Below the pieces are notes generated by a model. That model saw only the letters and a program-made list of their open reading frames with translations. It did no database searches and was not told where the DNA came from. From assembly GCA_029834535.1 (NCBI GenBank), contig JAQMWT010000415.1:1-64000 (forward strand): 64,000 nt of DNA, written 5' to 3'. The translations under genes were made by a program, and so were the position numbers. The DNA is from Chrysophaeum taylorii (Eukaryota > Sar > Pelagophyceae > Pelagomonadales > Pelagomonadaceae). How positions within the stretch are numbered: the stretch's first letter is position 1; each line of letters begins with the position of its first letter. This document shows positions 1 through 49,051 of the stretch, piece by piece.

Positions 1-264
1 ACTCGTCCTAGACCTCACTGAACGAGGAAAACACGGACCGGGGTCGGGTGCTCTCGCCACACACCTTGCTCACGCTCACCAAGCCTCTCAACAAGATGGA
101 GAGATGGTATATGATAGCAAGGAAACTACAAGAATACAGCAAGAATGCTTCTCACAAGAGAGAGGTATGATGTCACTAAGAAGATCGGGAAAGGTGTCCC
201 GTTGAACGGGTATCAAGCCTCGAGAGAGGGGGGTAAGCCTTAGCGGTCAGGAGTTGCCGCCACA
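1..264 (-). repeat. 3' LTR of gypsy copy A (cut by window start)
   Basis: This stretch matches 9632-9897 nearly base for base, including the terminal CCACA (TGTGG on the element strand). It therefore is the 3' LTR of the minus-strand element. Just inside it, the element strand reads AGGGGAGTCC before TGTGG, a short purine-rich run in the position of a polypurine tract. The outer end of the LTR lies beyond base 1. Confidence 0.9.
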
Positions 265-294: not shown

Positions 295-1822
295 TCAGCG
301 AGTCCGGCGAGAAGCACGAGCCTTGGCTGAATGAGCATCTCGAGAACGAATCTTCTTGTAGGCACGTTCAACGACAGGTTCAGGAACGCGTCCACCACGC
401 AAAGTGAACTTAGGAATCAACACATCGATCTCATGCGGGGCGAAGTCGGTGACACAAGGAGTGGTACTGTTGTTGACCTTGGTCTTGTCGGTGAAACTGC
501 GACCGTCCACGTCCTTGTATTCCGGCTTAAGCTTGCGAGTAGAGAGATGTGAAGTAGGCTTGTAATAAGAAACCTTGTCATGGGGACCGAGATCAGCATA
601 GAAATGCAGAGCGACTCGATCATTCACAAAATCATAGGGTTCATAAACTTCAGCGACATAAATCTTCTTTCGCCAATCGGACCGTTTATTATCCGGAATC
701 CGAAAGATAACGAACTTACCATGCTTGTAATCATCCCGAAAGGTCTCCTTGGGCTTGGGCACAGCTCGATCGACCACTGGAGAAACCATCACAGGGGTGA
801 TCTGACTAACATGAACACAACGGCGTTCGGGAGGAGAATCAAGAGACTCAATGTAAGTGACCGGGGACAAGCGTTCCAAAATAACGAATGGACCGCGCCA
901 TTCCGGTCGAAGCTTGTTCTGAAGAAAAGGGATGTAGAGCATAACATGTGAACCTTCTTCATACTCCACATCAACATGGTCCGCATTATAGGCGAGACGT
1001 TTACCGCATTATAGGCGAGACGTTTACGAAGAGCCTTCTCACGAGCTTCGTTCACCGTAGCGGTATAGAACTTCAGCCTCTCGCGAGTCTCTGCCACAAC
1101 ATCGGAGCGAGTTTTCGGCAGGCGGCGGACATCAAGATCCATGATCGTGTAATCGGTTGGCAATAAAGGCTGCCGGTTAAGACGAAGCATGAAAGGTGAG
1201 ATCTGAGTCCCCGGAATAAATTTACGATTGTAACAGAAAGCAATGTACTCCGCGAATTCGGGCCATTCCGTGATCTTGCGGTTTTGAAGGCACGCACGGA
1301 GGAAAGCCTTGATAAAGCGGTTGACCCTTTCCGCAGGATTAGCCTGAGCATGATACGGAATCGTGGTACTATACCGAACATTGAAAAGATGACAAAACTC
1401 TTCCATCAACTTGTTGACGAACTCTTTCCCATTGTCGGTACGAATCCTCTGAGGTAGATAACCTTGAGTAATATATTCGCGACAAAAGACTCGAGGATTG
1501 ACTCAGCAGTCTTATGGTGTAGTACGTCAAGAATCAAGAAATGAGAAAATGGATCAAAAAAAACGATGAGATATGTCTCGGGACCAGCACTGGGCAAAGG
1601 TCCAAACAAATCCATACAAAGGACGACACAATCACCATCATACACCGGTTGCTGAAGCAGACCTGCTCTCTTTGGTTCAGGCGTACGAGCTTTCTTGCAC
1701 ACTATGCAACCAGCATACATAAGCACCCACCTCATTAGACATATGAGGCCACCAAAAACGTTCAAGTATCGACTGCACTGTACTTTGACGACCCATATGA
1801 CCACCATTGAGAGGTGTGTCAT
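295..1822 (-). pseudogene. Integrase of gypsy copy A (frameshifted)
   Basis: Three overlapping frames on the minus strand together encode the integrase catalytic core and C-terminal part. The frame 1406-1822 holds CMDLFGPLPSAGPETYLIVF with the first catalytic Asp. The frame 789-1409 holds YHAQANPAERVNRF with the catalytic Glu. The frame 295-969 holds a GPY/F-like module (WRGPFVILERLSP) and a basic tail. The second Asp (RTDNGKEF in copy B) falls at a frameshift near 1430-1450, where copy A reads VPTMGKSSSTS. There is also a short local duplication of GCATTATAGGCGAGACGTTTA near 985-1025. Integrase normally inserts the cDNA into host DNA; this copy looks broken. Confidence 0.88.
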
Positions 1823-2912
1823 GGTACAATCGGATGATGCGCGTCCGTAAAGTTCGGGGTGCGACTATCATCGGGTGCAAGTCGGGTGCGGCACGGTAGA
1901 GAACTCCTTTCACCACTTGATAGCGATAATTGGCTCCGTACCGACGAAGAGAATGGCCCTGAGCCATGCGATAACGAATGTCCTCGCAAGTAGCATCAGT
2001 GATCTGCTCTTTGGCTATCTCTTCCAAAGTCAAATTATCCGGAATCTTGTCGATGTACTCTTGGTAATCATCGGCATCACGGAAAATACTAGGCTGGGTC
2101 TGCAGTCGTTGCTTCTGACGTTGTTTCGTAGCATGAGACGTGACCAATTGCATCGGATCATCGAGGTCTTCTTCCTCTTCCTCCACAGGCAACTCAGTCG
2201 TAACAAACGACAGAATGACATGGCACCCAGGTAAAGGTACTCCTTCATCATCAACAGAACGAAGGAGTTCTTGGCACACTAGATACGCGTGGTTCAAGGG
2301 TTCACCAAACTCGTCCGTCTCGATGACATGATCTATAGGATTGCGAGAGAGACAGTCAGGGATGCTCATTCCCGGCGACTTCCCTGGCTTGTAACCCAAT
2401 TCAGGATCAAAATTGGCGAGCCGCATCGCCCATCGAGCCAACTGCCCAGACGAGTGCTTCGCCTTTCGTAAAAACGTCAAGTTGCGATGATCTGTTTCAA
2501 GGATCGTCTTGTGACCTTCAATATAAGAGCGGAAATGCTCAAGAGAAAGAATAACTGCCAGGAGCTCTAGCCGGCGAGGCTCATAGTTCCGCATCTCTTT
2601 CGGCACAGCTCGGCTCCAATACTCAATTACTCGTTCCTCTCGTGTCACCTTGCCGGTTTCGTCCTTGATTTCCACGAGCTGAAAAAGATACGCACCCAGA
2701 CCATCCTTGGAAGCATCCGAGCGGATCTGAAAAGGAAGATCGTAGTCAGGATGATAAACTCCACGAGAATCCACCAAAGCTTCGATGATCGTGTCCCATG
2801 CCTTTCGGCACTCAGGCGTCCACTCAAACTTAACGCCTTCAAGACACGATCGCCTAAGCGGCTCCACAATCTTCGAATAATTCTTCACATATCGGCGGCA
2901 ATAGTTGCTCAT
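1677..2912 (-). pseudogene. RNase H and integrase zinc-binding domain of gypsy copy A
   Basis: One open frame of 411 codons. It begins with the RT thumb/connection (MSNYCRRYVKNYSKIVEPLR), continues into RNase H (IRSDASKDGLGAYLFQ, later ETDHRNLTFLRKAKHSSGQL and PGMSIPDCLSRNP), and ends in the HHCC-type zinc-binding N-terminus of integrase (YHDTPLNGGHMGRQSTV). The HHCC Cys pair is lost at a frameshift at the 3' end; copy B keeps it as CIVCKKA. RNase H degrades the RNA template during reverse transcription. The frame is open, but its neighbours on both sides are out of frame. Confidence 0.87.
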
Positions 2913-3713
2913 ACAACGTACCGGGAATCGGCATCTGCTGCAGCGCTTCTAACGTCTTGGGATTCGGCTTCAAGCCTTCCGGAGTCGAAATATGTCCCAA
3001 AAACTCGATTTCATCCTTGAGGAGGTGGAACTTCGAAGTTCGTCCACTATATCCTCGCTGTGCTAAATGGCACAACACTTCAATCAAAACTTGTAAATGT
3101 CGATGGAGTTCATCCGATCCCATCATAATATCGTCGACAAACGCGACCAAGTCCTTATACATCCATGTGGACAAATCGCTAGCCATCTGCTTACAAAAGA
3201 GAGCTCCTGCTGTTTTTACTCCTAGAGGCAAGCGCAAGAAACTATGGGCTCCAAGTGGACTAACCATCGTAACAGCGTCCTGAGCAGCGGCGTCCAAACG
3301 TAAGTTATGATAACCCCATCGAATATCAATGCACGTCCGCCAACGGCGCATGGCAAGAAAAGCCAAAGCATCATCTTGACGAATATTCGGCCAACTGTCA
3401 TTGACCAGCTGATCATTGAGCTGACGCAAGTCAACGGCAGCACGAAAAGCATTCGACGTCCCGGCCTCTTCTTAGGCAGCATCAGTACAGGAAATCCCCA
3501 CGGAGAGTTCGCCGGTCGGATGACTCCATCGCGACACCACTCAGTGATCTGCTTTCTGAGACACTCGAGCTTTGCTGGCGTCAACCTATAAGGCGTCATC
3601 TTGATCGGTCGTGGGTTTGCGTCTTTAAAGCGTAGAGAAACCGGTGGCGAGTCCACGGGTCTCATAATCGGATCAAAGAAAGCCCACGCGTACACGCAAT
3701 GGCTCAACATCAT
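2854..3713 (-). pseudogene. Reverse transcriptase of gypsy copy A (frameshifted)
   Basis: Two overlapping frames (3222-3713, then 2854-3429) cover the RT. The N-terminal part has the typical PYRLTPAKLECLRKQ and GVIRPANSPWGFPVLMLPKK segment. The palm has WRTCIDIRWGYHNL, SFLRLPLGVKTAGALFCKQM and the active-site box FVDDIMMGSDEL (FVDD in place of YVDD), followed by EFLGHIST. A frameshift between the PKK and DLRQLNDQL segments separates the two parts. Copy B has the same region in one uninterrupted frame. Confidence 0.9.
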
Positions 3714-3809: not shown

Positions 3810-5579
3810 TCATTGTCCTTGACGTGCTCGGGAATCTGCGGTAACGGTACACCGTCCGCATCGCGGTGCATCCTTCCATGGCACATCGAACTTTTCTTCG
3901 TATTTGAACCTCACCTCAGGGTGGCTCTTATTGATCTTTTCACCTTTGACGCGCACATTCGGCTCGCTCCTTACTTTCGGCTCCTGTTCAGGTTCAGGAT
4001 CCGGCGGAACGTCCACTTTTGATTGTCGGGGGGGGGCAGCAGAAAAAGCATGAGCCGTCCCCGGCGCATCAGTTGGAAGCGGAAGCATAGGAACTTCTGG
4101 CGGTTCCCATTTAGTGGGATCCTGGAGATCATCCTTTGACACCCACTTAACGACACGAGTACGCGTATTTAACAGCGGAATCTCTACGTGACGAAAGGTG
4201 GTGTCGGAGATTCGTAAATACTGCTCAAAGGATCGATCTGTCGGGCTCAACGCGGTCGGCAGGACTTCACCACTTTGGCGGAAACCTCTGGTCACGGAGT
4301 TGTGCAGATCGACTGCTAAAATCGCAAGAGTATCTGGAGGGACGACAGACGCTAAATGTTTGAACGAATCTGTCTTAGACAAGCTAGCCCAATCATGATC
4401 CACCGGCATCGTGAGCAACTCGGCCGTCATCTTGAGAGTCAAAGGCTGAGTGTCCGAGCGATGCGGTCCCAAACGAAGAGGAACCCGCGTAACGGTGTAA
4501 GCCGTATCTGTTGCTTCTCGGGACGAGCCAAGATTATTCAGCTGGAGAAGGTGGCGTTCATGAGCATAACCTAAAGCTGCAGCAAATTTTTGTTGCATGT
4601 TCACACATGTCTTCGGAGCCTCTTGCAAGTGCAGTGGGTGACTGGAAACCAACAATCGCACGCGAGAGCTCATCAGAGTAGGTGTGATATCATGAAAATT
4701 GACGACGTACACGTAAGGGTGTAAGCGCGCTATATACGAAATAATGGACGCCTCCTGTTCAATCAGCCACATCATGAAGCCAGCCATCTTGCACAACTTC
4801 ATCGTCCAGTTAGTGGCCGTAACACCCTTGCCAACATCTCTGGATGTCAAGTTGCAGAGTGCGGAATGAACGCAGGGTGGAGACGCTATACACATCGACG
4901 ATGACCATTCCGCTTCAGGCAAATAAGCCTTGATCAACCGGAGGGTCGAGTCATATCGTCCACAGAGCGTGTGCTGGACCACAGGTATCTTCGGAAAATT
5001 CTTCTGATGAACCTTGTTGGCAGCTGTTGACGAGTCAAGAGCAAGGACGACTCGAAACGACGTCCCGCACAACTCGTTCGCTCGTTGCAGTCCTAAAGTA
5101 CTTCCTCCGGCGCCGCTGAAGAGCATCACAACCTTGCGATACGTGATCGGCACCCAGTGGACCTTTTCAAACCTTCGGCGAATCTCGCATTCTGTAACTT
5201 CTCGGCATTTCTTTTCCTCCTCGTCAGTTCGTCGGTCGAAATCGTCGTTACCGAGCGATTCTTGACGAGAACTCTTCTTCTTATCGGCAGAAGGAGACGC
5301 CTTCTGCACTGAGCTCAAAAGCATCAGTTCAGGAGCCGCATTGCCTTGAGTAAGATGGCTTGCGACCGAAACAGTGAATGATAGGTTAGCCTTGTTAGAT
5401 TCGGCTTCACCATCCTTCGTTAAATCGTCGACCGTCACAGCATTCAGCTCGTCATCAAAACGAACAATATCGCCCAAAGCAAGGACTTCACCTTGAGTGA
5501 TCACGGTCGGCACATCCTGGGTAGAAGATATCGCCACTCGAGCTGCGAACTTATCATGATCCTCAGGAGAAGAACACAT
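3810..5579 (-). CDS. Cytosine-C5 DNA methyltransferase segment of gypsy polyprotein (copy A)
   Basis: A 589-codon open frame between the protease and RT. Residues ~150-430 carry the C5-cytosine methyltransferase motifs in canonical order: motif I FSGAGGSTLGLQRA (SAM binding, ~154-167), a motif II-like acidic strand (VVLALDSSTAANK), motif IV ASPPCVHSALC with the catalytic Cys at ~236, a degenerate motif VI (WLIEQE instead of ENV), motif VIII SSRVRLLVS (~304), motif IX QPLTLKMTAELLTMP (~379-393) and motif X ASVVPPDTLAIL (~410-421). The target-recognition stretch between VIII and IX is short, about 65 residues. The N-terminal ~150 residues are a Ser/Glu-rich linker and the C-terminal ~160 a Pro/Glu/Lys-rich linker into RT. 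Such an enzyme would methylate DNA at C5 of cytosine, possibly the element's own copies. DNMT-bearing retrotransposons are known from dinoflagellates and a charophyte alga. Activity is unproven, given the altered motif VI. Confidence 0.87.
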   Translation of the reverse strand: MCSSPEDHDKFAARVAISSTQDVPTVITQGEVLALGDIVRFDDELNAVTVDDLTKDGEAESNKANLSFTVSVASHLTQGNAAPELMLLSSVQKASPSADKKKSSRQESLGNDDFDRRTDEEEKKCREVTECEIRRRFEKVHWVPITYRKVVMLFSGAGGSTLGLQRANELCGTSFRVVLALDSSTAANKVHQKNFPKIPVVQHTLCGRYDSTLRLIKAYLPEAEWSSSMCIASPPCVHSALCNLTSRDVGKGVTATNWTMKLCKMAGFMMWLIEQEASIISYIARLHPYVYVVNFHDITPTLMSSRVRLLVSSHPLHLQEAPKTCVNMQQKFAAALGYAHERHLLQLNNLGSSREATDTAYTVTRVPLRLGPHRSDTQPLTLKMTAELLTMPVDHDWASLSKTDSFKHLASVVPPDTLAILAVDLHNSVTRGFRQSGEVLPTALSPTDRSFEQYLRISDTTFRHVEIPLLNTRTRVVKWVSKDDLQDPTKWEPPEVPMLPLPTDAPGTAHAFSAAPPRQSKVDVPPDPEPEQEPKVRSEPNVRVKGEKINKSHPEVRFKYEEKFDVPWKDAPRCGRCTVTADSRARQGQ

Positions 5580-5587
5580 TCCTTCGA

Positions 5588-6739
5588 CTACCCCGAGTTG
5601 CTCGTACCCAGAAGACGTAGCAACGAAAACTTGCCCAGTTTCACGGGCTCTGAAAGAGCGACTGGCACGCAGTAGGTGCGCCCAGGCTCGACCTTCATCG
5701 TGCGCGCAGCATAGGCTTTCACTTCATAAGCATCGCTGTTCGAACTTTGAGAAGGCGTAACTGGAGGAACTCCCCAAGTCGTCGAAGCTCCCGCTCGTTT
5801 CGGCGGTGGACGCTGGAGGTCTTCAATCTTGCACAAGCGAGCGTAGACTCGGTTCTCAACTGTGCTCAGGCTTTGTTGCATCGCATGGTGCTGTTGTCCA
5901 TAAACCTGAACTACCACGGGATTGCTCTCGTCATAAGTTGTTCTGAACGTCAAAATCGGAGAATCTACTCGTCGATCCTGCACCTTTAACTTTTGCGCCC
6001 GTAAGCGACTTGTGTGCGTAGAAACGCAATGCGATTCCGCGGGTAGTCCACTATGGCTCCAAACACCCGAATATCGCGCGCTCCCAGCAAAATAGATGAT
6101 TAGTATCGGCCACAATAGCAACAACTGGAACGGCAACGTCGTCCGCAAGCGCAATCCGCAATGCACCCATTTGTGGATAGTCGTTTTGTTCAATCCTGAC
6201 CCATACAAAGTGCGCTCGACTGGAAGATCGCCCCGGTCAAGGATGATGCTATCCTTTTCCAGTTTTTCAACCATCCCACGACAAATATAAGAGACATCAG
6301 CCATTCCATCCACGCCTAAAGTCGTTGCAAACTTCGGCCCGTCTCGTCGTCTATAAATATGACCAACTATAAACGTAAGGGTACCAGGGTCCAGGCAACC
6401 GATGGTGATGAGGTCTTGCTCGATCTTTTCCCCATCGCTCGGCGACAGTGCAGTGTGATGACATCGTATCTCCGGTTTCGCATCGCCCGGAATCTGCATC
6501 GTCACCGCTGCTATATCTGGCGTACTACATCTCGCCGCTGAATCTATATTGGCGCTCGCCGCTTCGGCTGCTTCCTCATTCCCCAGTTTCGCTGACAACA
6601 AATTCTGACACTTCTCAATCGGAGGCACATATATCTCCTCCTTTATCTCTTCTGGTAATCGTTTCTCGTCCATCAAATCGGACATTCCCGTCAACTTCTC
6701 CTCCATCGGCGCCGCTGTGGTCTGCTCTGCTGCGACCAA
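5588..6739 (-). pseudogene. Aspartic protease region of gypsy copy A
   Basis: This 383-codon frame spans a gag/protease linker and a retropepsin-like domain. The N-terminal catalytic loop reads TLGVDGMADVSYI, where DTG/DSG would be expected. In copy B's inverted segment the C-terminal half reads LLGARDIRVLGAIVDYP, matching the ILG-(D/R)-hLRxxGAVIDY box that closes clan AA proteases. In copy A a frameshift after TIHKW scrambles this second half. Downstream, NSDAYEVKAYAARTMKVEPG leads toward the methyltransferase. Such a protease would cut the polyprotein. The missing glycine of the DTG triad raises doubt about activity. Confidence 0.7.
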
Positions 6740-6762
6740 AACTGTATCGGCTAGAACATCGG

Positions 6763-8365
6763 CTAAAACGGTCTCGGGGGGGGCGTAGGAAAAGAAGACG
6801 TCGTCCCCGACGTCAACTCAAAAGGTCTAACGTCATCATCGTGAACTGCCCTGCAAGACATGCACATTGACGAATGGGGGGACACTGGAACCTGCGGCAT
6901 GGGTTCGTCGGTCTCCGAATCTGAGTCTTCCCAGTAGTGCGGAGAATCCCAAGTAGCATCTGACATTGCTTCCACATACGATGTAGAAGGCCACCGAACG
7001 ATCCGAGCGTTGGTGGTATGTTGCTCCTGTTGCAAACGATGGCTGCTCGTCACAGCGACATCGGCAACATCATCGGAGACTCGGGCAGGGCGCGCCGTCG
7101 GGTAAAAGACAACCCCCGACATTGGCGGCGCGTCGCATAAAGATTGGAACGCGAAAGTTGCGCTCGAATGTCCCGAACTATCCTGATATCTGCCTCCGTC
7201 ATACTCGTCATCGTAATGTCGATGACGTCGGCGCCGGCGCGAATTGCGACTAGAGCTCCGGTGACGGCAAGGACTCGGGCTGTCTTGAGCAGTATGGGCT
7301 TTTCGATCAGGGCTCTGGCTTCGATGTCGGCGTGACGATCGTCTAGAAGGTGATCGTCCGTCTCGCTGTCGTGTAGAAAACGACGTAGTATCCTTGATGC
7401 TTCTGACCTCGCTCACCATGGTCGCCATTGTGGTTCCAAGATCGGTGAGGGCCGTTTGAATTTCATTAGAAGGCTCCGATCCGTGCGTGGCGTTCGCATT
7501 AGATGCATCATCACGCTTTGCCCAATCGGACCGCGATATGGGCTGCTTCTTCTGCTTACGAATTCGCTTCCACATCGCACAGTAGTAACGATCCGGATCG
7601 CGGTTGCAAACTACGCGATTTCCGTGTTCATCTTCATCATGGGTGGTCCAGAAGAACCCACAGTGCGGGCACGTTCTCTTGCCCCACAGAAAAGGATCTC
7701 GTAAAATCAGCGGATCCGTATTCCCAGACGGTTTATCCGCATCTTGCTTGGCTTGTTGATCGGAGGCCAATGATTTCGGATTAGGTTGGCCTTGGTCCTT
7801 CTCCTCCTCAATCAACTTTTGTAAGTCGTTCTCGAGCCGCGTAATAAGCGCTACCATCGACTTAAAAGTCACGTAACTATCAGGATGTCCGCTCCTCATA
7901 GTCCGCACACGGGTCCTCAACTCCTTGGACGTCAATCCACTGATAAGCTGGTCGAGGATATCGACATCATCCATCGTGCGGCTGGACACGGAACAAAACT
8001 CCAAGGCTTCAGATTGGAATCTGGTACAATACGTTTGCGTGCCGCTCCCCAGACTTCTTCGGAACTGAAGCCTGGGTGACCTTCCGCAGCTTGTCAAGCA
8101 GCTCCTGCTGCGTGCGCGGAGGTCGGCAAGTCGATCTAAAATAATCCAAAATCTTGTCGCAATACGTCTTGTTAAGACGACGGATACGACGAACCGAGAC
8201 TCCATGCTCTTCATCGTCAGTATCTAATTTCAAGTAAAACGACGGACCGTGTGGTAGCTCATCGCAGAGCTCCTCGTATTTCTGCAAGTGTTCCTCAAAA
8301 TTGGTGCAACGGTGACCCGTAGATGCACAGGTAGTAACGTAATTTCTCGACCGAGTAATGGTCAT
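6763..8365 (-). pseudogene. Gag C-terminal half of gypsy copy A
   Basis: Two frames (8009-8365 and 6763-8214) encode the second half of gag. The first has PSFYLKLDTDDEEHGVSVRR; the second has a long helical segment (RMRTMRSGHPDSYVTFKSM in context) and a Cys/His cluster, CPHCGFFWTTHDEDEH followed by CNRDPDRYYC. That cluster is not a standard CCHC knuckle but could bind zinc. It is followed by an Arg/Ser-rich tract of the kind that binds nucleic acid (RSPSRRSSRRHRSQSPDR). Gag packages the element RNA. The frames are offset, so this copy is broken here. Confidence 0.75.
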
Positions 8366-9148: not shown

Positions 9149-9609
9149 ACCGTATTAAATATCGATCAAGAATCTCGAAACACGTCCGGATCCGATCACT
9201 CGAAGTAATTCACGTTGATTCCAACAACGCTATCTGTCGCTGTAAAAACAGCACTCACGGAATTCCAATCCGCTGGCAATTCAAAATGCGCGGGTAGCGA
9301 TCCCACTCGCTAAACAGCTTCCACCGTTCAGCTATACCAAAATCAATTCCCGGGAGAATGCGCTGCGATTTCCAACTCGCACGCGTGTTCGTCGTCACTC
9401 GGATCGTACGAACACAAACAACGTTCGCGTATATTCTCAACGCAAACCGGTCCAATGGAACTCCGTGTGCTTGATCAGGGCGCACGTACAAATCCGGACC
9501 ACGTAATACAACACGTACGGCAGCACTCGCTCGTCGGCGACCGATGTAGTCGCACGATCTCGTGTACTCCACCACGTATGGCGGCACAGAAAACCTTCCC
9601 GACCCCCGG
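9149..9609 (-). other. Leader between 5' LTR and gag of copy A
   Basis: No convincing coding frame. The same leader occurs at about 39690-40161 in copy B. Next to the LTR the element strand reads TCACCCGGGGGTCGGG, the place where a primer-binding site is expected. It does not start with the usual TGG, so the priming tRNA is not identified. Confidence 0.6.
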
Positions 9610-9897
9610 GTGACAAAGGGGGTACTCACCGACTCGTCCTAGACCTCACTTAACGAGGAAAACACGGACTCGGGGTCGGGTATGCTCGCCACACACCTTG
9701 CTCACGCTCACCAAGCCTCTCAAGAAGATGGAGAAATGGTATATGATAGCAAGGAAACTTCAAGAATACAGCAAGAATGCTTCTCACAAAAGAGAGGTAT
9801 GATGTCACTAAGAAGATCGGGAAAGGTGTCCCGTTGAACGGGTATCAAGCCTCGAGAGAGGGGGGGTAAGCCTTAGTGGTCAGGAGTTGTCGCCACA
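9610..9897 (-). repeat. 5' LTR of gypsy copy A
   Basis: Bases 9632-9897 match the 3' LTR at 1-264. The outer boundary TGTGGCGACAACTCCTG (element strand) starts at 9897. The inner boundary is estimated near 9610, where the element strand reads TTTGTCA before the conserved leader. The length is close to 290 bp. The host side begins with TGCCTGACACGGGCGG, itself part of a dispersed repeat. Confidence 0.85.
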
Positions 9898-10000
9898 TGC
9901 CTGACACGGGCGGAGATAAGTATGCGAAGCCTAGTCGGGGTCATCGCCGAGTCGCGGGGCAGGCGAAGAGAGGACGGGCCCCGCCCGGAGATCGTACGTG
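9898..10000 (+). repeat. Dispersed repeat R1 (left copy)
   Basis: The segment running through GTCGGGGTCATCGCCGAGTC and GGGGCAGGCGAAGAGAGGAC occurs on the opposite strand at 32100-32200, and part of it again at about 10385-10445 (GGGGCAGGCGAAGAGAGGAC, GGGCCCCGCCCGGAGGTCGT). The LTR of copy A abuts it. It travels with the helicase fragments described below and is probably part of that transposon family. Confidence 0.7.
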
Positions 10001-10204
10001 ACATGTGTCACCCTGATTTCTGTGTTTCGATAATATCTTAATCATAAAGCAACAGCCGATCCTCAAGTTGTGAGGACCAGGCACGGAAGTTGTTTGTGGT
10101 TGTGTGGCAGGAGAACGGCCATCCTCGTCCAGTGACTCCATCAAGGGCACGGGCGCGAGCGGCGAGCCAGGATTCGAAGGCACGCCAGGTAGCCCCTAAA
10201 ATTC
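10001..10204. other. Intergenic, no gene seen
   Basis: No convincing coding frame or RNA gene. The stretch lies between repeats R1 and R2. Confidence 0.5.
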
Positions 10205-10395
10205 TCCTTACGCCACAGCTTCGTTCCGTGTTGTCAGTGTAAACGCTTCTATGGGACTTAACGTCCTTAAGGAGTTAGGGCCCATATCCCTACTTTGTGT
10301 AGTAGCATGCGACACGCGGAATGGTCTGTACACGCCTAAGACTGCACGCAGACTCTACCATGTACCCGGAGAGGGTCAAATCTCGCCAGGGTCAT
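10205..10395 (+). repeat. Dispersed repeat R2 (left copy)
   Basis: This block, from GTTGTCAGTGTAAACGCTTC to ATGTACCCGGAGAGGGTCAA, recurs in the same orientation at 50045-50225 with scattered differences. Both copies keep an open frame (GLYTP, TAR, LYHVPGEGQISPG). Substitutions include both silent and replacement changes, so coding is not proven. The family is not recognised. Confidence 0.7.
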
Positions 10396-22572: not shown

Positions 22573-22607
<35 letters not shown>

Positions 22608-36024: not shown

Positions 36025-36070
36025 GTCCGTTGAAATACATATATCCGTTGAGCGCAGAGCGAATTCCAAA
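36025..36070. promoter_or_regulatory. Minimal bidirectional promoter, WD40 / Josephin
   Basis: Only 46 bp lie between the WD40 start codon (minus, 36022-36024) and the chosen Josephin ATG (plus, 36071). The gap contains ATACATATATCC, the only AT-rich stretch. If the Josephin gene instead starts at 36023, the two start codons overlap within CATG. Both promoters must then lie inside the opposite gene. Confidence 0.6.
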
Positions 36071-39333: not shown

Positions 39334-39385
39334 GCGAACCACCAAGCCGGTTCCCAGATACCTGTCTTTCATTCGAGTCAACGAC

Positions 39386-39690
39386 TGTGGCGGCAACTCC
39401 TGACCGCTAAGGCTTACCCTCCCTCTCTCTCGAGGCTTGATACCCGCTCAACGGGACGCCTTTCCCTATCTTCCTAGTGACTGACATCATACCTCTCTCT
39501 TGTGAGAAGCATTCTTGCAGTATTCTTGTAGCATTCTTGCTATCATATACCATCTCTCCATCTTGTTGAGAGGCTTGGTGAAAGTGAGCAGGGTGTGTGG
39601 CGACCATATCCGACTCCGAATCCGTGGTTTTCTCGTTCAGTGAGGTCTTTGGACGAGTCGGTGTGTAAGTACCCCCTTTGTCTGTCACCC
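39386..39690 (+). repeat. 5' LTR of gypsy copy B
   Basis: Begins TGTGGCGGCAACTCCTGACC, matching the reverse complement of the copy A LTRs, and runs through CTCGAGGCTTGATACCCG to the CCCCCTTTGTCTGTCA border near 39690. It is slightly longer and more diverged than copy A's LTRs. Confidence 0.87.
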
Positions 39691-40161
39691 GGGGGTCGGG
39701 AGTGATTTTTCTGTTCCGCCAAACGTGGTGGAGGATATGAGATCGTGCGACTACTCCTCATCGGTCGCCGACGAACGAGTGCAGCCGTACGTATTGTATT
39801 ACGTGGTCCGGATTGTTGTACGTGAGCCCTGATCAAGCACACGGAGTTCCAGTGGACCGGTTTGCGTTGAGAATATACGCGAACGTTGTTTGTGTTCGTG
39901 CGATCCGAGTGACGACGAACACGCGTGCGAGTTGGAAATCGCAGCGCATTCTCCCGGGAATTGATTTTGGTATAGCTGAACGGTGGAAGCTGTTTGGCGA
40001 GTGGGATCGCTACCCACAGGCATTTTTGAATTGCCAGCGGATTGGAATTCCGCGAGTCCTGATTTTACAGCGACAGATAGCGTTGTTGGAATCAACGTGA
40101 ATTACTTCGAGTGATCGGATCCGGACGTGTTTCGAGATTCTTGATCGATATTTGATACAAT
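39691..40161 (+). other. Leader between 5' LTR and gag of copy B
   Basis: Same leader as at 9149-9609 in copy A. It starts CCCGGGGGTCGGG and holds no supported coding frame. It ends at the gag start codon at 40162. Confidence 0.6.
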
Positions 40162-43059
40162 ATGGAGATAAACGCAGACGTGCGTGAGGAAGAATCTCCT
40201 CCAGTTCTTCCCGCCGCCCCTGAGATAGGCCGCGAGGAAGGTGAATTAAGAGAGGCCGAGGCAGTCGACGTTGCTGACGTGCCCCCTGACGTGCCTCCGG
40301 ATACTGCCATTTTTTCGCGGTTTAGTCCAACGACCCCGGACCGTGGCGAGCGTGTTACGATTGAGCGCGGATCTGCAGCCCCAAGTCGACTTCGTGAAGA
40401 CCTCGAGCGGAGACGTCGCGAAAATGAACGATCAGCTGAGCTTTTTGCTCGTGAAAGGGCTGAAGCGAAAGAGGAAGCGGCTCGACGAGAAGTTGATATG
40501 CTCAATGATGCATTACAGCAAGAGATCGAGACCTCGAAGACCCTACGTGAAGAGGTTGAACGATTTCGTCGTGAACGAGATGAATTGTTAGCCGAACGTA
40601 CGCTTCGGAAGAGTAGCCGCGAACGACCCGTGAGTCGACCCGAACCGGAAACGCCCATGAGGCCGTCTGAACCGGAAAGGAACACTGAAACGGGGAATGA
40701 ACCTCGCCCCGAGTCGGTACGGAGACTGAGGGTAGGGCGGAAGTTGAGAATGAAGGTACGAAAATTATACGGGAATTATCGCGGGGAATATCGCAGACGG
40801 TTGCGGACGCCTTAGAAAAGGGCAACTTGAGCCGATCCCGTCGACCCACCTCCAGTTTTAAGCCTGACAACTTCAAACTCGTCATCGACGGCCGAGACCA
40901 ACGGCAATTCAATTTGGATTCGGCGGCGATGATGCATACTTTAGCAGACGACCATTACTCGGTCGAGAAATTACTTTACGTACTACCTGTGCATCTACGG
41001 GACCAAATTTTGAGGGACACTTGCAGAAATACGAGGAGCTTTGCGATGAACTACCGCACGGTCCGTCGTTTTGCTTGAAATTGGACACTGACGATGAAGA
41101 GCATGGAGCCTCGATTCGTCGCATCCGTCGTCTTAACAAGACGTATTGCGATAAGACTTTGGATTATTTTAGATCGACTTGCCGACCTCCGCGCTCGCAG
41201 CAGAAGCTGCTCGACAAGCTGCGGAAGGTCACTCAGGCTTCAGTTCCGAAGAAGTCTGGGGAGCGGCACGTCCAGACGTATTGTACCAGATTCCAATCGG
41301 AAGCCTTGGAGTTTTGTTCCGTGTCCAGCCGCACGATGGATGATGTCGATATCCTCGACTAGCAGTGGACTGACATCCAAGGAGTTGAGGACGCGTGTGC
41401 GGACTATGAGGAGCGGACATCCTGATAGCTACGTGACTTTTAAGTCGATGGTAGCGCTTATCACGCGACTCGAGAACGACTTACGAAAGTTGATGGAGGA
41501 AGAGAAGGACCAAGGCCCTCCTAATCCGAAATCGAATAAACCGCCGCGAGGGCGGGGAGGTCGAGCTATGGCCTCCGATCAACAAGCCAAGCAAGATGCG
41601 GATAAACCGTCTGGGAATGCGGATCCGCTGATCTTACGAGATCATATTTTGTGGGGCAAGAGGACGTGCCCGCACTGTGGGTTTCTTCTGGACCACCCTT
41701 GATGAAGATGAACACGGAAATCGCGTGGTTTGCAACCGCGATCCGGATCGTTAGTACTGTGCGATGTGGAAGCGTATTCGTAAGCAGAAGAAGCAACCCA
41801 TATCGCGTTCCGATTGGGCGACGCGTGATGATGCATCTCGTGCGAACGCCACTCGCGGATCGGAGCCTTCTAATGAAATTCAAACAGCCCTCACCGATCT
41901 TGGAACCACAATGGCGACCATGGTGAGCGAGGTCAGAGGTATTAAGGATACTACGTCGTTTTCTACACGTCAGCGAGACGGACGATCACCTTCTAGCCGA
42001 TCGTCGCGACGACATCGAAGCCAGAGCCCTGATCGAAAGGCCAATACTCCTCAAACCAGCCCGAGTCCCCGCCGCCACCGGAGCTCTAGTCGCAATTCGC
42101 GCCGGCGCTGACGTCATCGACATTACGATGACGAATATGACGGAGGCAGATATCAGGATAGTTCGGGACATTCGAGCGCAACTTTCGCGTTCCAATCTTT
42201 ATGCGACGCGCTGCCATTGTCGGGGGTTGTCTTTTACCCGACGGCGCGCCCCGCCCGAGTCTCCGATGATGTTGCCGATGTCGCCGTGACGAGCAGCAAT
42301 CGTTTGCAACAGGAGCAAAATACCACCAACGCTCGGATCGTTCTGTGGCCTTCTACATTGTCTGTGGAAGCAATATCCGATGCTACTGTGAATTCTCCGC
42401 ACTACTTGGAAGACTCAGATTCGGAGACCGACGAGCCCGTGCCGCAGGTTCCAGTGTCCCCCCATTCGTCAATGTGCATGTCTTGCAGGGCAGTTCACGA
42501 TGATGACGTTAGACCTTTTGAGTTGACGTCGGGGACGACGTCTTCTTTTCCTACGGGGCCCCCCGAGCCCGTTTTAGCCGTTTTAGCCGATGTCGAGCCC
42601 GTTTTACCCGATGTTTTAGCCGATACTGTTTTGGTCGCAGCAGGGCAGACCACAGCGGCGCCGATGGAGGAGAAGTTGACGGGAATGTCCGATTTGACGG
42701 ACGAGAAACGACGATTGCCAGAAGAGATAAAGGAGGAGATCTATGTGCCTCCGATTGAAGAGTGTCAGAATTTTTTTTCAGCGAAACTGGGGAATGAGGA
42801 AGCAGCCGAAGCGGCGAGCGCCAATATAGAGTCAGCGGCGAGATGTAGAACGCCAGATACAGCAGCGGTGACGATGCAGATGCCGGGCGATGCGAAACCG
42901 GAGATACGATGTCATCACACTGCACTTTCGCCGAGTGATGGGGAAAAGATCGAGCAAGACCTCATCACCATTGGTTGCCTGGACCCTGGTACACTTACGT
43001 TTATAGTTGGTCATATTTATAGACGACGAAACGGGCCGAAGTTTGCAACGACTTTAGGC
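40162..43059 (+). pseudogene. Gag and start of protease, gypsy copy B
   Basis: Starts MEINADVREEESPP as in copy A. The first frame (40162-40815) has the coiled coil; later frames (41021-41362, 41094-41702, 41764-42111) carry the capsid part, the Cys/His cluster (CPHCGFLL, broken by a frameshift) and the Arg/Ser tract. The frame 42217-43060 holds the acidic spacer and the run-up to the protease, ending GPKFATTLG at the inversion breakpoint. Stops at about 41360 and 41703 and a TGA near 42110 show that it is not functional. Confidence 0.82.
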
Positions 43060-43815
43060 GAACTTATCATGATCCTCAGGAGAAGAACGCATTCCACCGA
43101 CTACCCCGAGTTGCTCGTACCCAGAAGACGTAGCAACGAAAACTTGCCCAGTTTCCACGGGCTCTGAAAGAGCGACTGGCACGCAGTAGGTGCGCCCAGG
43201 CTCGACCTTCATCGTGCGCGCAGCATAGGCTATCACTTCATAGGCATCGCTGTTCGAACTTTGAGAAGGCGTAACTGGAGGGACTCCCCAAGTCGTCGAA
43301 GCTCCCGCTCGCTTCGGCGGTGGACGCTGGAGGTCTTCAATCTTGCACAAGCGAGCGTAGACTCGGTTCTCAACTGTGCTCAGGCTCTGTTGCATCGCAT
43401 GGTGCTGTTGCCCATAAACCTGAACTACCACGGGATTGCTCTCGTCATAAGTTGTTCTGAACGTCAAAATCGGAGAATCGACTCGTCGATCCTGCACCTT
43501 TAACTTCCTGCGCCCAAAAGCGACTTGTGTGCGGAGAAACGCAATGCGATTTCGCGGGTAGTCCACTATGGCTCCTAACACCCGAATATCGCGCGCTCCC
43601 AGCAAAAATAGATGATTAGTATCGGCCACAATAGCAACAACTGGAACGGCTACGTCGTCCGCAAGCGCAATCCGCAATGCGACCCATTTGTGGATAGTCG
43701 TCTTGTTCAATCCTGACCCGTACAGGGTGCGCTCGACTGGAAGATCGCCCCGGTCAAGGATGATGCTATCCTTTTCCAGTTTTTCAACCAGCCCACGACA
43801 AATATAGGAGACATA
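43060..43815 (-). pseudogene. Inverted protease segment inside gypsy copy B
   Basis: This block reads on the minus strand although the rest of copy B is plus. Read that way it encodes SGLNKTTIHKWVALRIALAD, LLGARDIRVLGAIVDYP and SNSDAYEVIAYAARTMKVEP, continuing through LGVVGGMRSSPEDHDKF. So in this segment the protease, the linker and the start of the DNMT part are in one continuous frame, which copy A has lost. Breakpoints lie at ACTTTAGGCG (43060) and at GTTCGCAGC (43818). About 16 bp of the ancestral sequence, encoding the catalytic Asp loop, are missing at the left breakpoint. Confidence 0.85.
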
Positions 43816-45399
43816 GTTCGCAGCTCGAGTGGCGATATCCTCTACCCAGGATGTGCCGACCGTGATTACTCAAGGTGAAGTCCTTGCTTTGGGCGATATT
43901 GTTCGTTTTGATGACGAGCTGAATGCCGAGTCGGTCGACGATTTAACGAAGGATGGTGAAGCCGAATCTAACAAGGCTAGCCTATCATTCACTGTTTCGG
44001 TCGCAAGCCATCTTACTCAAGGCGATGCGGCTCCCGAACCGATGCTTTTGAGCTCAGTGCCGAAGGCGTCTCCTTCAGCCGATAAGAAGCAGAATTCTCG
44101 TCAAGAATCGCTCGGTAACGACGATTTCGACCGAAGAACTGACGAGGAGGAAAAGAAATGCCGAGAAGTTACAGAAGGCGGCGAGATTCGCCGAAGGTTC
44201 GTTTAGGTCCACTGGGTGCCGATCACGCATCGCAAGGTTGTGATGCTCTTTAGCGGCGCTGGAGGAAGTACTTTAGGACTGCAACGAGCGAACGAGTTGT
44301 GCGGGACATCGTTTCGAGTCTTCCTTGCTCTTGACTCTTCAATAGCTGCCAACAAGGTTCATCAGAAGAATTTTCCGAAGATACCTGTGATTCAGCACAC
44401 GCTCTGCGGACGATATGACTCGACCCTCCGATTGATCTAGGCTTATTTACCTGAAGCGGAATGGTCATCGTCGATGTGTATAGCGTCTCCACCCTGCGTT
44501 CATTCAGCACTCTGTAATTTGATATCCAGAGATGCTGGCAGGGGTGTTACAGCCACTAACTGGACGATGAAACTGTGCAAAATGGCTGGTTTCATGATGT
44601 GGCTGATCGAACAGGAGGGTCCATTATTTCGTATATAGCGCGCTTACACCCTTACGTGTACGTCGTCAATTTTCATGATATCACGCCCACTTTGATGAGC
44701 TCTCGCGTGCGATTGTTGGTTTCCAGTCACCCACTGCACTTGCAAGAGGCTCCGAAGACATGTGTGAACATGCAACAAAAATTTGCTGCAGCTTTAGGTT
44801 ATGCTCATGAACGCCACCTGCTCCAGCTGAATAATCTTGGCTCGTCCCGAGAAGCAACAGATACGACTTACACCGTTACGCGGGTTCCTCTTCGTTTGGG
44901 ACCGCATCGCTCGGACACTCAGCCTTTGACTCTCGAGATGACGGCCGAGTTGCTCACGATGCCGGTGAACTATGATGGGGCTAGCTTGTCTAAGACAGAT
45001 TCGTTCAAACATTTAGCGTCCGTCGTCCCTCCAGACACTCTTGCGATTCTAGCAGTCGATCTGCACAACTCCGTGACCAGAGGTTCCCGCCAAAGTGGCG
45101 AAGTCCTGCCGACCGCGTTGAGCCCGACAGATCGATCCTTTGAGCAGTATTTGCGAATCTCTGACACCACCTTTCTCCACGTACAGACTCCGCTGATAAA
45201 TACGCGCACTCGTGTCCTTAAGTGGGTGTCAATGGATGATCTCCAGGATCCCACTAAATGGGGACCGCCAGAAGCTCCTATGTTTCCGCTTCCAACAGAT
45301 GCGCCGGGGACGGCTCATGCTTTTTCTGCTGCCCCCCCCCCTGACAATCAAAAGTGGACGTTCCGCCGGATCCTGAACCTGAACAGGAGCCGAAAGTAA
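43816..45399 (+). pseudogene. Cytosine-C5 DNA methyltransferase segment, gypsy copy B (broken)
   Basis: Same domain as 3810-5579 in copy A, but split. Frame 43829-44206 holds the acidic linker. Frame 44216-44440 holds motif I (VVMLFSGAGGSTLGLQRA) and ends at an in-frame stop in STLRLI. Motif IV (ASPPCVHSALC) lies near 44485-44520. Frame 44575-45399 holds motif VIII (SSRVRLLVS), IX (QPLTLEMTAELLTMP) and X (ASVVPPDTLAIL). The conserved motifs are the same as in copy A although linker positions differ, so the domain was probably under selection before this copy decayed. Confidence 0.85.
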
Positions 45400-46412
45400 G
45401 GAGCGAGCCGAATGTGCGCGTCAAAGGTGAAAAGATCAGTAAGAGCCACCCTGAGGTGAGGTTCAAATACGAAGAAAAGTTCGATGTGCCATGGAAGGAT
45501 GCGCCGCGCGATGCGGACGGTGTACCGTTACCGCAGACTCCCGAGCACGTCAAGGACAATGATGCGATGGAAGTCGTAATTCCGACGAAGGAAGAAGTCG
45601 AAACGGCTGTTCGAGATCTGGGAATTTCCGACAACGCGCATCTGGATGATGATGCGAAGATGATGTTGAGCCACTGCGTGCAATACGCGTGGGCCTTCTT
45701 TGATCCGATTATGAGACCCGTGGACTCGCCACCGGTTTCTCTACGATTCAAAGACGCAAACCCACGACCGATCAAGATGACGCCTTATAGGTTGACGCCA
45801 GCAAAGCTCGAGTGTCTCAGAAAGCAGATCACTGAGTGGTGTCGCGATGGAGTCATCCGACCGGCGAACTCTCCGTGGGGATTCCCTGTACTGATGCTGC
45901 CTAAGAAGGGAGCAGAGGCCGGGACGTCGAATGCTTTTCGTGCTGCAGTTGACTTGCGTCAGCTTAATGATCAGCTGGTCAATGGCAGTTGGCCGAATAT
46001 TCGTCAAGATGATGCTTTGGCTTTTCTTGCCATGCGCCGTTGGCGGACGTGCATTGATATTCGATGGGGTTATCATAACCTACGTTTGGACGCCGCTGTT
46101 CAGGACGCCGTTACGATGATTAGTCCACTTGGAGCCCATAGTTTCTTACGCTTGCCTCTAGGAGTAAAAACAGCAGGAGCTCTCTTTTGTAAGCAGATGG
46201 CTAGCGATTTGTCCACATGGATGTATAAGGACTTGGTCGCGTTTGTCGACGATATTATGATGGGATCGGATGAACTCCATCGACATTTACAAGTGTTGAT
46301 TGAAGTGTTGTGCCAATTAGCACAGCGAGGATATAGTGGACGAACTTCGAAGTTCCACCTCCTCAAGGATGAAATCGAGTTTTTGGGACATATTTCGACT
46401 CCGGAGGCTTGA
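45354..46412 (+). pseudogene. Reverse transcriptase of gypsy copy B
   Basis: One open frame of 352 codons from the Pro/Glu-rich DNMT-RT linker (PDPEPEQEPKVRSEPNVR) into the RT: PYRLTPAKLECLRKQ, GVIRPANSPWGFPVLMLPKK, DLRQLNDQLVNGSWPNIRQD, LRLPLGVKTAGALFCKQMAS and the FVDDIMMGSDEL active-site box. It ends by frameshift at STPEA, within the GHIST box. It shows that linker and RT share a frame, and copy A shows DNMT and linker sharing a frame. Confidence 0.9.
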
Positions 46413-46945
46413 AGCCGAACCCCAAGACGTTAGAAGCGTTGCAGCAGATGCCGATTCCTGGTACGTTGCCCAATACGTCCCCGAAGACCAAGATTCGATC
46501 TTTCATTGGCATGAGCAACTATTGCCGCCGATATGTGAATAATTATTCGAAGATTGTGGAGCCGCTTAGGCGATTGTGTCTTGAAGGCGTCAAGTTTGAG
46601 TGGACGCCTGAGTGCCAAAAGGTATGGGATACGATCATCGAAGCTTTGGTGGACTCTCGCGGAGTTTATCATCCTGATTGCGATCTTCCTTTTCAGATGC
46701 GCTCGGATGCTTCCAAGGATGGTCTGGGTGCGTATCTTTTTCAGCTCGTGGAAGTCAAGGACGAAACAGGTAAGGTGACACGAGAGGAACGAGTAATTGA
46801 GTATTGGAGCCGAGCTGTGCCGAAAGAGATGCGGAACTATGAGCCTCGCCGGCTAGAGCTACTGGCAGTTGTTCTTTCTCTTGAGCATTTCCGCTCTTAT
46901 ATCGAAGGTCACAAGACGATCCTTGAACGGATCATCGCAACTTGA
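46409..46945 (+). pseudogene. RNase H of gypsy copy B
   Basis: Continues the RT: SFIGMSNYCRRYVNNYSKIV, then RNase H with MRSDASKDGLGAYLFQLVE and YEPRRLELLAVVLSLEHFRS. It breaks at ERIIAT, where copy A reads ETDHRNLTF, by a single-base frameshift. RNase H removes the template RNA strand. Confidence 0.87.
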
Positions 46946-48273
46946 CGTTTTTACGAAAGGCGAAGCGCTCGTCTGGGCAGTTGGCTCGATGGGCGATGCG
47001 GCTCGCCAACTTTGATCCTGAATTGGGTTACAAGCCAGGGAAGTCGCCGGGAATGAGTATCCCTGACTGTCTCTCTCGCAATCCTATAGATTATGTCATC
47101 GAGACGGACGAGTTTGGTGAACCCTTGAACCACGCGTATCTAGTGTGCCAAGAACTCCCTCGCCCTGTCAATGCTGAAGGAGTACCTTTATCTGGGTGTC
47201 ATGTCATTCTGCCGTTTGTTACGACTGAGTTGCCTGTAGAGAAAGAGGAAGAAGACCTCGATGATCCGATGCAATTGGTTACGTCTCATGCTACGAAACA
47301 ACGTCAGAAGCAACGTCTGCAGACCCAGCCTAGTATTTTCCGTGATGCCGATGATTACCAAGAGTACATCGACAAGACTCCGGATTATTTGACTTTGGAA
47401 GAGATAGCCAAAGAGCAGATCACTGATGCTACTTGCGAGGACGTTCGTTATCGCATGGCTCAGGGCCATTCTCTTCGTCGGTACGGAGCCAATTATCGCT
47501 ATCAAGTGGTGAAAGGAGTTCTCTACCGTGCCGCACCCGACTTGCACCCGATGATAGTCGCACCCCGAACTTTACGGACGCGCATCATCCGATTGTATCA
47601 TGACACACCTCTCAATGGTGGTCACATGGGTCGTCAAAGTACAGTGCACTCGATACTTGAACGTTTTTGGTGGCCCCACATGTCTAATGAGGTGGGTGCT
47701 TACATTGCTGGTTGCATAGTGTGCAAAAAAGCTCGTACGCCTGAACCAAAGAGAGCAGGTCTACTTCAGCAACCGGTATATGATGGTGAATGCGCCGTCC
47801 TTTGTATGGATTTGTTTGGACCTTTGCCCAGTGCTGGTCCCGAGACATATCTGATCATCTTTTTTGATCCATTTTCTCATTTCTTGATTCTTGACGTACT
47901 ACACCATAAGACTGCTGAGTCAATCCTCGAGTCTTTTGTCGCGAATATATTACTCAAAGGTTATCTACCTCAGAGGATCCGTACCGACAATGGGAAAGAG
48001 TTCGTCAACAAGTTGATGGAAGAGTTTTGCCATCTTTTCAATGTTCGGTATAGTACCACGATTCCGTATCATGCTCAGGCTAATCCTGCAGAAAGGGTCA
48101 ACCGCTTTATCAAGGCTTTCCTCAGTGCGTGCCTTCAAAACCGCAAGATATCGGAATGGCCCGAATTCGCGGAGTACATTGCTTTTTGCTACAATCGTAA
48201 GTTCATTCCGGGGACTCAGATCTCACCTTTCATGCTTCGTCTTAACCGGCAGCCTTTATTGCCAACCGATTAG
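46942..48273 (+). pseudogene. RNase H tail and integrase of gypsy copy B
   Basis: A 443-codon frame with the best-preserved integrase in the window. The zinc-binding HHCC is complete: YHDTPLNGGHMGRQSTVHS, then AGCIVCKKA. The catalytic D, D, E residues are present in CMDLFGPLPSAG, RIRTDNGKEFVNKLM and YHAQANPAERVNRF. The frame ends at a TAG where copy A has a sense codon (LPTDYTIMDLDV), so the C-terminal domain is cut off. Integrase inserts the element cDNA. Confidence 0.9.
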
Positions 48274-49051
48274 ACGATCATGGATCTTGATGTCCGCCGC
48301 CTGCCGAAAACTCGCTCCGATGTTGTGGCAGAGACTCGCGAGAGGCTGAAGTTCTATACCGCTACGGTGAACGAAGCTCGCGAGAAGGCTCTTCGTAAAC
48401 AACGTCCCGCACAATGCGGACCATGTTGATGTGGAGTATGAAGAAGGTTCACATGTTCTGCTCTACCCTTTTCTTCAGAACAAGCTTCGACCGGGATGGC
48501 GCGGTCCATTTGTTACTTTGGAACGTTTGTCCCCGGTCACTTGCAGGATTGAGTCTCTTGATTCTCCTCCTGAACGCCGTTGTGTTCATGTTAGCCAGAT
48601 CACCCCTGTGATGGTTTCTCCAGTGGCCGATCGAGCTGTGCCCAAGCCCAAGGTTGGGAATTCACTTCAGCAAGTGAACGTGAACCACTTCACCAGCCAC
48701 TCCAATATTGGTGAAGTGATTTGAAGTGAACACGTCACCCTACGTGGCCATCGTGAACCTTTGTGAAGTGAACGCCACCTTTTTTTTTTTTTTTTACGCC
48801 AGCGCCGGTCCCTGTCGCGCCCCGTCAGTTCCGTGCCCCCCGCGCGCTATTGCCTAGGTCTGGTGCTCTTAGATTCATTCGCGTAGACTTTTTGGGATGA
48901 TTACAAGCATGGTAAGTTCGCTGTCTTTCGGATTCCGGATAACAAACGGTCCGATTGGCGAAAGAACATTTACGTCGCTGAAGTTTATGAACCCTATGAT
49001 TTTGTGAATGATCGAGTCGCTCTGCATTTCTATGCTGATCTCGGTCCCCAT
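48274..49051 (+). pseudogene. Integrase C-terminal region of gypsy copy B, with insertion, truncated
   Basis: After the TAG the similarity to copy A continues: LDVRRLPKTRSD, EYEEGSHVLLYPFLQNKLRP and GWRGPFVTLERLSP. It is interrupted at 48652 by a foreign insertion and resumes at about 48885 (DDYKHGKFAVFRIPDNKRSD) until 49051, where it stops abruptly. Confidence 0.87.
48653..48884 (-). mobile_element. Small inserted element with inverted repeats and poly-T (poly-A on minus)
   Basis: Absent from copy A at the same place, so it is a clean insertion of about 230 bp. The left part holds nested inverted repeats: TTCACTTCA with TGAAGTGAA, and inside them CACTTCACC with GGTGAAGTG. Further copies of GTGAAGTGAA follow. 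A run of 16 T (48780-48795) comes next, and then GC-rich DNA to 48884. On the minus strand this reads as a GC-rich body with a poly-A tail, as in a short retroposon. No RNA polymerase III box is evident. Confidence 0.7.

Follow-up and report, generated by a model that had tools for sequence, protein, structure and literature searches.

A Ty3/gypsy retrotransposon in the genome of Chrysophaeum taylorii carries, as a stable part of its Pol region, a domain derived from a cytosine-C5 DNA methyltransferase (MTase). We analyzed a stretch of 64,000 nucleotides, hereafter called the window, which holds two copies of this element (Table 1), and compared them with relatives in the genome assembly (70.8 Mb, 697 contigs). 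The anatomy and the retention of an MTase-derived domain are conclusions that we hold with high confidence. We lean, by a small degree, toward the complete explanation, in which a captured C5-MTase has been kept as a functional part of Pol, is packaged, and would methylate the cDNA or the fresh insertion. DNA methylation by the host silences transposons, and for this reason transposons that carry and preserve an MTase of their own present a paradox.

Table 1. Features of the two element copies, in window coordinates
Feature	Positions	Strand	Remarks
3' LTR, copy 1	1..264	-	Cut by contig start; identical to 5' LTR at 254/264 aligned positions
RNase H and integrase zinc-binding domains	1680..2948	-	PF17917, PF17919, PF17921
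MTase-bearing open frame	3813..5723	-	637 codons; in the Ty3/gypsy element, follows the protease-like frame and precedes RT/RNase H
MTase core, 293 aa	4290..5168	-	Segment used for comparisons
Putative motif X, ASVVPPDT	4332..4355	-	Position only
Putative motif IX, QPLTLKMTAELL	4416..4451	-	Position only
Putative motif VIII, SSRVR	4659..4673	-	Position only
Putative motif VI, LIEQE	4755..4769	-	Position only; Glu 38 residues past Cys, as in phage MTase L066 (counted by eye)
Motif IV, SPPC (catalytic-type Cys)	4875..4886	-	Statistical support over motifs I-IV
Motif I, FSGAGG (SAM binding)	5106..5123	-	Statistical support over motifs I-IV
Protease-like frame, retropepsin-like motif VDGMADVSYI	5591..6817	-	Upstream of MTase; motif by eye, no Pfam match
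Gag-like frame	6766..8223	-	Position only, no Pfam match
Primer-binding-site-like sequence TGGTGGAG...	9561..9574	-	2 nt inside LTR; by eye
5' LTR, copy 1	9577..9897	-	TG start; inner end set by eye at the PBS-like site
Copy 2 of the element, broken	39385..49051	+	No 3' LTR found
Inverted 757-bp segment, copy 2	43058..43814	-	Upstream of MTase core
MTase relic, copy 2	44198..45399 (start approximate)	+	Motifs I, IV, and VI share a frame that has two stops; VIII-X lie in a different one
RT (RVT_1), copy 2	45345..46412	+	Pfam scan
Integrase H2C2 and rve, copy 2	46927..48273	+	Pfam scan

Read in the direction of the element, copy 1 consists of an LTR, the Gag-like frame, the protease-like frame, the MTase, RNase H, the integrase zinc domain, and the second LTR. 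Its frames are interrupted; the MTase frame itself is open. The original prediction, made from the letters of the window, had placed a methyltransferase between protease and RT at positions 3810-5579, but it missed the strand: the plus-strand reading of this interval contains many stops, and the open reading is on the minus strand. The location within Pol was borne out, with the protease recognized by motif, RNase H and integrase by Pfam, and RT by scans of copy 2 and of a relative on contig C5 (L039). An LTR piece at window positions 9997-10217, which is 92% like the LTR of a second subfamily of the element (subfamily B, see below), lies ~100 bp away from the copy 1 LTR; this would fit an insertion of copy 1 inside an older LTR or close to one. 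The prediction also described a second copy with the same domain and motifs (43816-45399). The same sequence is indeed present there, but the broken state of this copy had gone unnoticed: in addition to the inverted segment upstream of the MTase and a 231-bp insertion, there are two in-frame stops and a frameshift that falls between motifs VI and VIII. Elsewhere in the window, an uninterrupted frame of 4,552 codons (14062-27720, minus strand) with ANAPC10/DOC-like, SPRY, and C-terminal HECT domains represents a giant HECT ubiquitin ligase, a frame of 1,174 codons (33061-36582, minus strand) contains WD40 repeats, and a sulfotransferase-family frame (38557-39333, plus strand) adjoins copy 2. 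Rfam gave no matches in the window, and ARAGORN found no tRNA there.

Long uninterrupted relatives are found on contig C5, where two copies consist of a single open frame of 3,063 and 3,067 codons that contains the domain. In the latter (L039), most of which was scanned in four pieces, MTase, RVT_1, RNase H, H2C2, and rve follow each other in this order, with the protease, recognized by motif alone, ahead of the MTase; this copy has the order protease - RT - RNase H - integrase of a Ty3/gypsy Pol. The LTRs of this C5 element are 336 bp long with TG...CA ends, carry the PBS-like site 2 nt inside, and are identical at 336/336 positions, which suggests that this element has moved recently. A target-site duplication was not seen when the LTR comparison output was inspected by eye.

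The MTase identity of the domain is based on profile and alignment scores. As proposed in the original prediction, the window frame matches PF00145 of Pfam, scoring 24.2 bits where the cut-off is 22 (E 2.7e-5), and this match is restricted to profile positions 2-52 of 324, that is, motif I and its surroundings. The NCBIfam dcm profile gave 17.4 bits, far under its cut-off of 100.65, and two PHROG families of DNA methyltransferases matched with E values of 8.3e-9 and 5.5e-7. When phage records were searched with the gypsy core, two weak places were obtained at E <= 1 (0.02 and 0.09), and both are annotated as DNA methyltransferase. Significance was assessed by end-gap-free global alignment, expressed as z scores against shuffled sequences. 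Core residues 1-104, which span motifs I-IV, gave z scores of 14.4 and 12.7 with these two phage enzymes, a score reached by none of 300 shuffles, and 7.0 with a DNMT2-like protein of the host and 2.8 with a third phage MTase. The same half of the B-subfamily core gave 13.4 and 12.2, 6.9, and 1.7, respectively. Core residues 105-293 did not score beyond the shuffles with any of these MTases (z -1.7 to -0.5 for the window copy and -1.6 to 0.5 for the B copy). Because the z scores are high for residues 1-104 and at chance level for residues 105-293, motifs I-IV are secure in statistical terms and motifs VI-X are not. Judged by these alignments, motifs I-IV of the gypsy domain are homologous to C5-MTases beyond chance, and motifs VI-X are putative, fitting a C5-MTase in order, spacing, and conservation. 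The motifs named in the original prediction all occur in the one open frame, but statistical support extends over I-IV, and VIII, IX, and X, like VI, are recognized by order, spacing, and conservation alone.

In the best pairwise alignment of the second half of the domain, LIEQE falls on VIENV at an equal distance from the Cys, and SSRVR falls on QSRQR. A MAFFT alignment of eight sequences places the part beyond motif IV differently, and neither placement is supported by score; the domain is too diverged from the other sequences of this set to be placed reliably in a tree. The single-sequence AlphaFold2 model of the domain had a mean pLDDT of 32.1, too low to inform on the fold. A size-limited, word-based search of a protein database gave, with its scored candidates, no relatives of the query P0001 or of the gypsy core alignment at E <= 1e-3, and viral contigs yielded no relatives of either the gypsy MTase or the copia MTase described below.

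To judge how firmly the domain is fixed in the element, we counted its copies. The query P0001 gave at least 72 genome matches, 69 long ones and 3 short pieces (69 of 1,582 candidates were scored), and a 121-residue piece of the core gave at least 150 matches on at least 129 contigs (all 150 that were scored matched, out of 734 candidates). Among these 150 core matches listed, 35 lie in frames of at least 1,000 codons, and 5 have a stop inside the piece. Among 150 RNase H matches listed, 91 have a core MTase match 1.2-4.5 kb upstream, in 77 of the 91 cases at a distance of 2.4-2.5 kb. Ten of the 59 RNase H loci with no core match listed were inspected, chosen rather than drawn at random, and in eight of these the MTase sequence is present in whole or in part, in two cases rearranged. 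Copies lacking the domain would, according to the original prediction, speak against it; by these counts the domain accompanies the element, with exceptions at the other two loci inspected. On contig C119 (L061, 4200-6260), a deletion of 1,032 bp, a length divisible by three, has removed most of the MTase core and created a natural MTase-less variant, and on contig C411 the element match stops before it reaches the domain. In view of the in-phase loss on C119, elements may be able to do without the domain, at least when it is supplied in trans. The contig pairs C10/C297, C25/C521, and C6/C268 show the same matches at nearly the same coordinates and probably represent haplotypes that the assembly retains in duplicate; the number of independent insertions is therefore lower than the number of matches. 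At another locus (L029; C49:1396-6225), a further MTase fragment with a broken frame, at positions 4337-4830, adjoins another copy and is oriented the opposite way, a case of nested or head-to-head insertions.

The copies fall into two subfamilies, A (the window type) and B (the C5 type), which differ at ~26% of the residues in this region. dN/dS was determined for 20 of 30 A loci and 5 B loci by the Nei-Gojobori method, leaving out pairs with dS <= 0.01 or >= 3. Between A and B, the median dN of the core was 0.124, dS 2.14, and dN/dS 0.058 (100 pairs), as compared to 0.026 for RT (94 pairs), 0.036 for RNase H, 0.157 for the N-linker, and 0.183 for the C-linker; these ratios are rough and possibly too low, because dS between A and B is saturated and the loci were mostly picked for uninterrupted frames (in B, long frames). 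Within A, the ratio was 0.19 for the core (186 pairs) and 0.29 for RT (162 pairs), and within B 0.13 and 0.33 (10 pairs each). The 20-residue blocks at motif I and at motifs IV-VI are identical between the subfamilies at 19 of 20 residues, and those of the N-linker at 8 to 16. These values indicate that the MTase domain is under purifying selection in both subfamilies, and the comparison of MTase and RT put forward in the original prediction resulted in ratios well below 1 for both.

The claim that the domain belongs to the element and is not a chance insertion was therefore upheld, given the spread of core matches over contigs, the two subfamilies, and the dN/dS values. The interrupted frames of both window copies and the counts inflated by contigs resembling duplicate haplotypes could have been taken as signs of a chance capture, an assembly artefact, or a functionless pseudogene cluster; we rejected this explanation as extremely improbable in light of the copy spread, the long open frames, and the dN/dS ratios. 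Alternatively, the domain would be a degenerate, non-catalytic MTase that is kept as a nucleic acid-binding or structural part of Pol. Motif VI reads EQE instead of ENV, motif IV reads PPCV instead of PPCQ, and the C-terminal half is unrecognizable by sequence, all of which would fit such a role. However, the SPPC Cys, the LIEQE Glu, and the R-x-R are invariant in 8 of 8 aligned copies of both subfamilies, which were picked for open frames, and few blocks are as conserved as those at motifs I and IV-VI. We consider a non-catalytic role improbable.

The original prediction found the domain in the gypsy element but missed that a second, dissimilar MTase is present in Ty1/copia elements of the same genome. 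A search of the genome with PF00145 gave at least 57 matches (123 of 474 candidates were scored), of which 55 are on the list of Ty1/copia MTase matches, where the copia label stands for a match to the MTase of locus L046, the one locus that was read through to RT. This list has at least 150 entries (150 of 150 scored; 327 candidates), with identities down to 48%. L046 (C96:60000-69000) has, in order, a protease motif DGGAS, the MTase (E 4.3e-8), rve (weak, 0.0028), and RVT_2. The copia MTase aligned with one phage MTase over its full length (z 10.7; 6.9 and 8.3 by half) and with two others at lower scores, and it did not align with the host DNMT2-like protein (z 0.7). A phage search with the copia core gave 30 records, and among the 10 listed, seven are annotated as DNA methyltransferase or methylase, one as hypothetical protein, and two carry no annotation; in the word-based protein database search, no scored candidate reached E <= 1e-3 with the copia core alignment. 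The dN/dS of the copia MTase was ~0.13 (7 loci, 21 pairs). Between the gypsy and copia MTases, no similarity was detected (BLASTP E 6.5; hhalign probability 0.8%), and for this reason the two were likely captured independently, the other possibility being a single captured gene that has diverged very deeply. The occurrence of a different MTase in a second retrotransposon family suggests that such enzymes repeatedly help retrotransposons. None of the 57 genome matches listed for PF00145 is a gypsy copy, although the window frame passes the cut-off when scanned alone, which suggests that surveys based on PF00145 can miss elements of this type.

The other two of the 57 matches are host genes. L001 (C634), of 360 codons, is DNMT2-like, a label based on its motifs, and L045 (C621) is DNMT5-like and combines an MTase with SNF2, with Helicase_C under its cut-off (E 8e-4). 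As the host has a DNMT5-like gene, there is probably a methylation system that can be disturbed, and the element MTase might mainly act there, methylating elsewhere as a decoy or diluting DNMT5-dependent marks and so freeing elements from silencing. The abundance of MTase loci from two kinds of elements would suit such an activity, but no trans effect is visible in the sequence and one would expect a Pol product to stay inside particles, and we regard interference with host silencing as an unlikely main function. A red plastid in the host is suggested by contig C697 (103.6 kb), in which rbcL adjoins a frame read as rbcS and a 3.9-kb stretch that was read has 31% GC. Among solved structures, this rbcL is nearest to one group of Rubisco large chains, which we take to be diatom and red-type enzymes; on account of this similarity and the low GC content, C697 resembles a plastid genome with red-type Rubisco, which makes an ochrophyte host likely and spoke against the oyster parasite Perkinsus, a host considered at first.

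Evidence against plain CG self-methylation came from the differences between copies. There was no excess of C/T differences at CpG among 318 pairs of A copies that were less than 10% diverged (29 A loci), with a ratio of 1.04 between the C/T rates at CpG and non-CpG sites. The CpG observed/expected ratio was above 1 in A copies, with a mean of 1.17; it was 1.29-1.34 in five B loci and 1.00-1.10 in seven copia loci. Four host-gene loci had 1.26-1.46, and the lower values of the elements could be a matter of composition. C/T differences affected 6.5% of C sites on the sense strand and 5.1% on the antisense strand, with moderate differences between contexts (CCT was highest on the sense strand) and no readable pattern.

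The missing CpG footprint would also be expected of an enzyme that acts on RNA in the manner of DNMT2, methylating the genomic RNA or the tRNA in the particle and thereby stabilizing or priming reverse transcription. Among sequence matches to solved structures, the sole MTases were DNMT2/TRDMT1, weakly and in the region of motif I (E 0.08 to 0.9), next to unrelated proteins and with no DNMT3, and in a profile comparison with the host DNMT2-like protein, motifs I to IV aligned (E 0.0017, probability 15%). RNA methylation has moreover been suggested for SymbioLINE-Dnmt (PMC5890265). However, the two phage DNA methyltransferases outscore DNMT2 on the same half of the core, and the substrate can hardly be predicted from motif I. 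The PBS-like site was found at 95 places, all of which end as in elements, and no tRNA gene matches it at up to 1 mismatch. Taken together, we think an RNA substrate rather unlikely, if somewhat less so than the other functions discussed above.

In the explanation toward which we lean, methylation of cDNA or of a fresh insertion by a packaged enzyme, a Ty3/gypsy lineage of a red-plastid alga would have captured a C5-MTase before subfamilies A and B split. The MTase is made within one polyprotein, as shown by the single open frame that runs through MTase, RT, and integrase in two copies. It would then be packaged in the virus-like particle, be cut out by the protease of the element, and methylate newly made cDNA or a freshly integrated copy, and the new copy may in this way resemble host DNA or escape a host check on unmodified DNA. 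Whether cDNA methylation is indeed the job of the enzyme is, to our mind, evenly balanced. A broader proposal, to which we attach slightly less confidence, is that two LTR superfamilies independently took up unrelated C5-MTases and placed them at equivalent positions in Pol, directly following the protease in domain order, and that these represent a recurrent, selected, particle-packaged tool. Because there is no CpG decay, the gypsy product would, under this proposal, be methylation in another context, a transient mark, or methylated RNA, and not ordinary CG self-methylation. The question is made testable by this compact 71-Mb genome, in which two LTR superfamilies have dissimilar MTases, some copies have long open frames, and one element has identical LTRs.

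Capture of DNMTs by retrotransposons was stated in the original prediction to be known in a few eukaryotes, in agreement with reports on a gypsy element of Klebsormidium and on DIRS and LINE elements of Symbiodinium (PMC5890265). That DNMT3 members occur within LTR Copia as well as DIRS elements is mentioned in a 2025 paper, which cites work from 2018 (PMC12344493), and the parts examined of a survey of DNMTs in marine microeukaryotes make no mention of elements like those described here (PMC9998398). Among titles and abstract starts of the open-licence literature, we found no publication that reports them. Within the genome itself, the copia elements resemble the gypsy elements in that the MTase is the next recognized domain after the protease motif, and differ in having the integrase before RT, LPC and ENV motifs in the MTase, and a PF00145 match that covers profile positions 29-156 instead of 2-52. 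DIRS elements with Dam-like methyltransferases are also retrotransposon-borne cases, but these enzymes modify N6-adenine and not C5-cytosine (PMC5890265). The SymbioDIRS-Dnmt3 and SymbioLINE-Dnmt elements of Symbiodinium are similar in that hundreds of retrotransposon-borne MTases occur in one algal genome and in more than one element class. They belong to DIRS and LINE elements, and their activity has been assayed. De novo methylation of CG was found for the SymbioDIRS-Dnmt3 MTases, whose target is proposed by the authors to be cDNA (PMC5890265). Those described here belong to Ty3/gypsy and Ty1/copia elements. Also among the closest known systems is KnitGypsy-Dnmt3 of the charophyte Klebsormidium nitens, in which several intronless copies carry an MTase in a gypsy-type Pol with Ka/Ks < 0.2 (PMC5890265). 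An MTase in gypsy Pol is thus already known, and the elements described here are a variant of that arrangement, with the MTase inside a gypsy-type Pol and purifying selection in both. In Klebsormidium, the MTase is a Dnmt3 and the repeats are DIRS-like (PMC5890265); DIRS-like terminal repeats were not encountered here, where the one element seen at both ends has a plain TG...CA LTR pair, the core has at least 150 matches, and the host has a red plastid.
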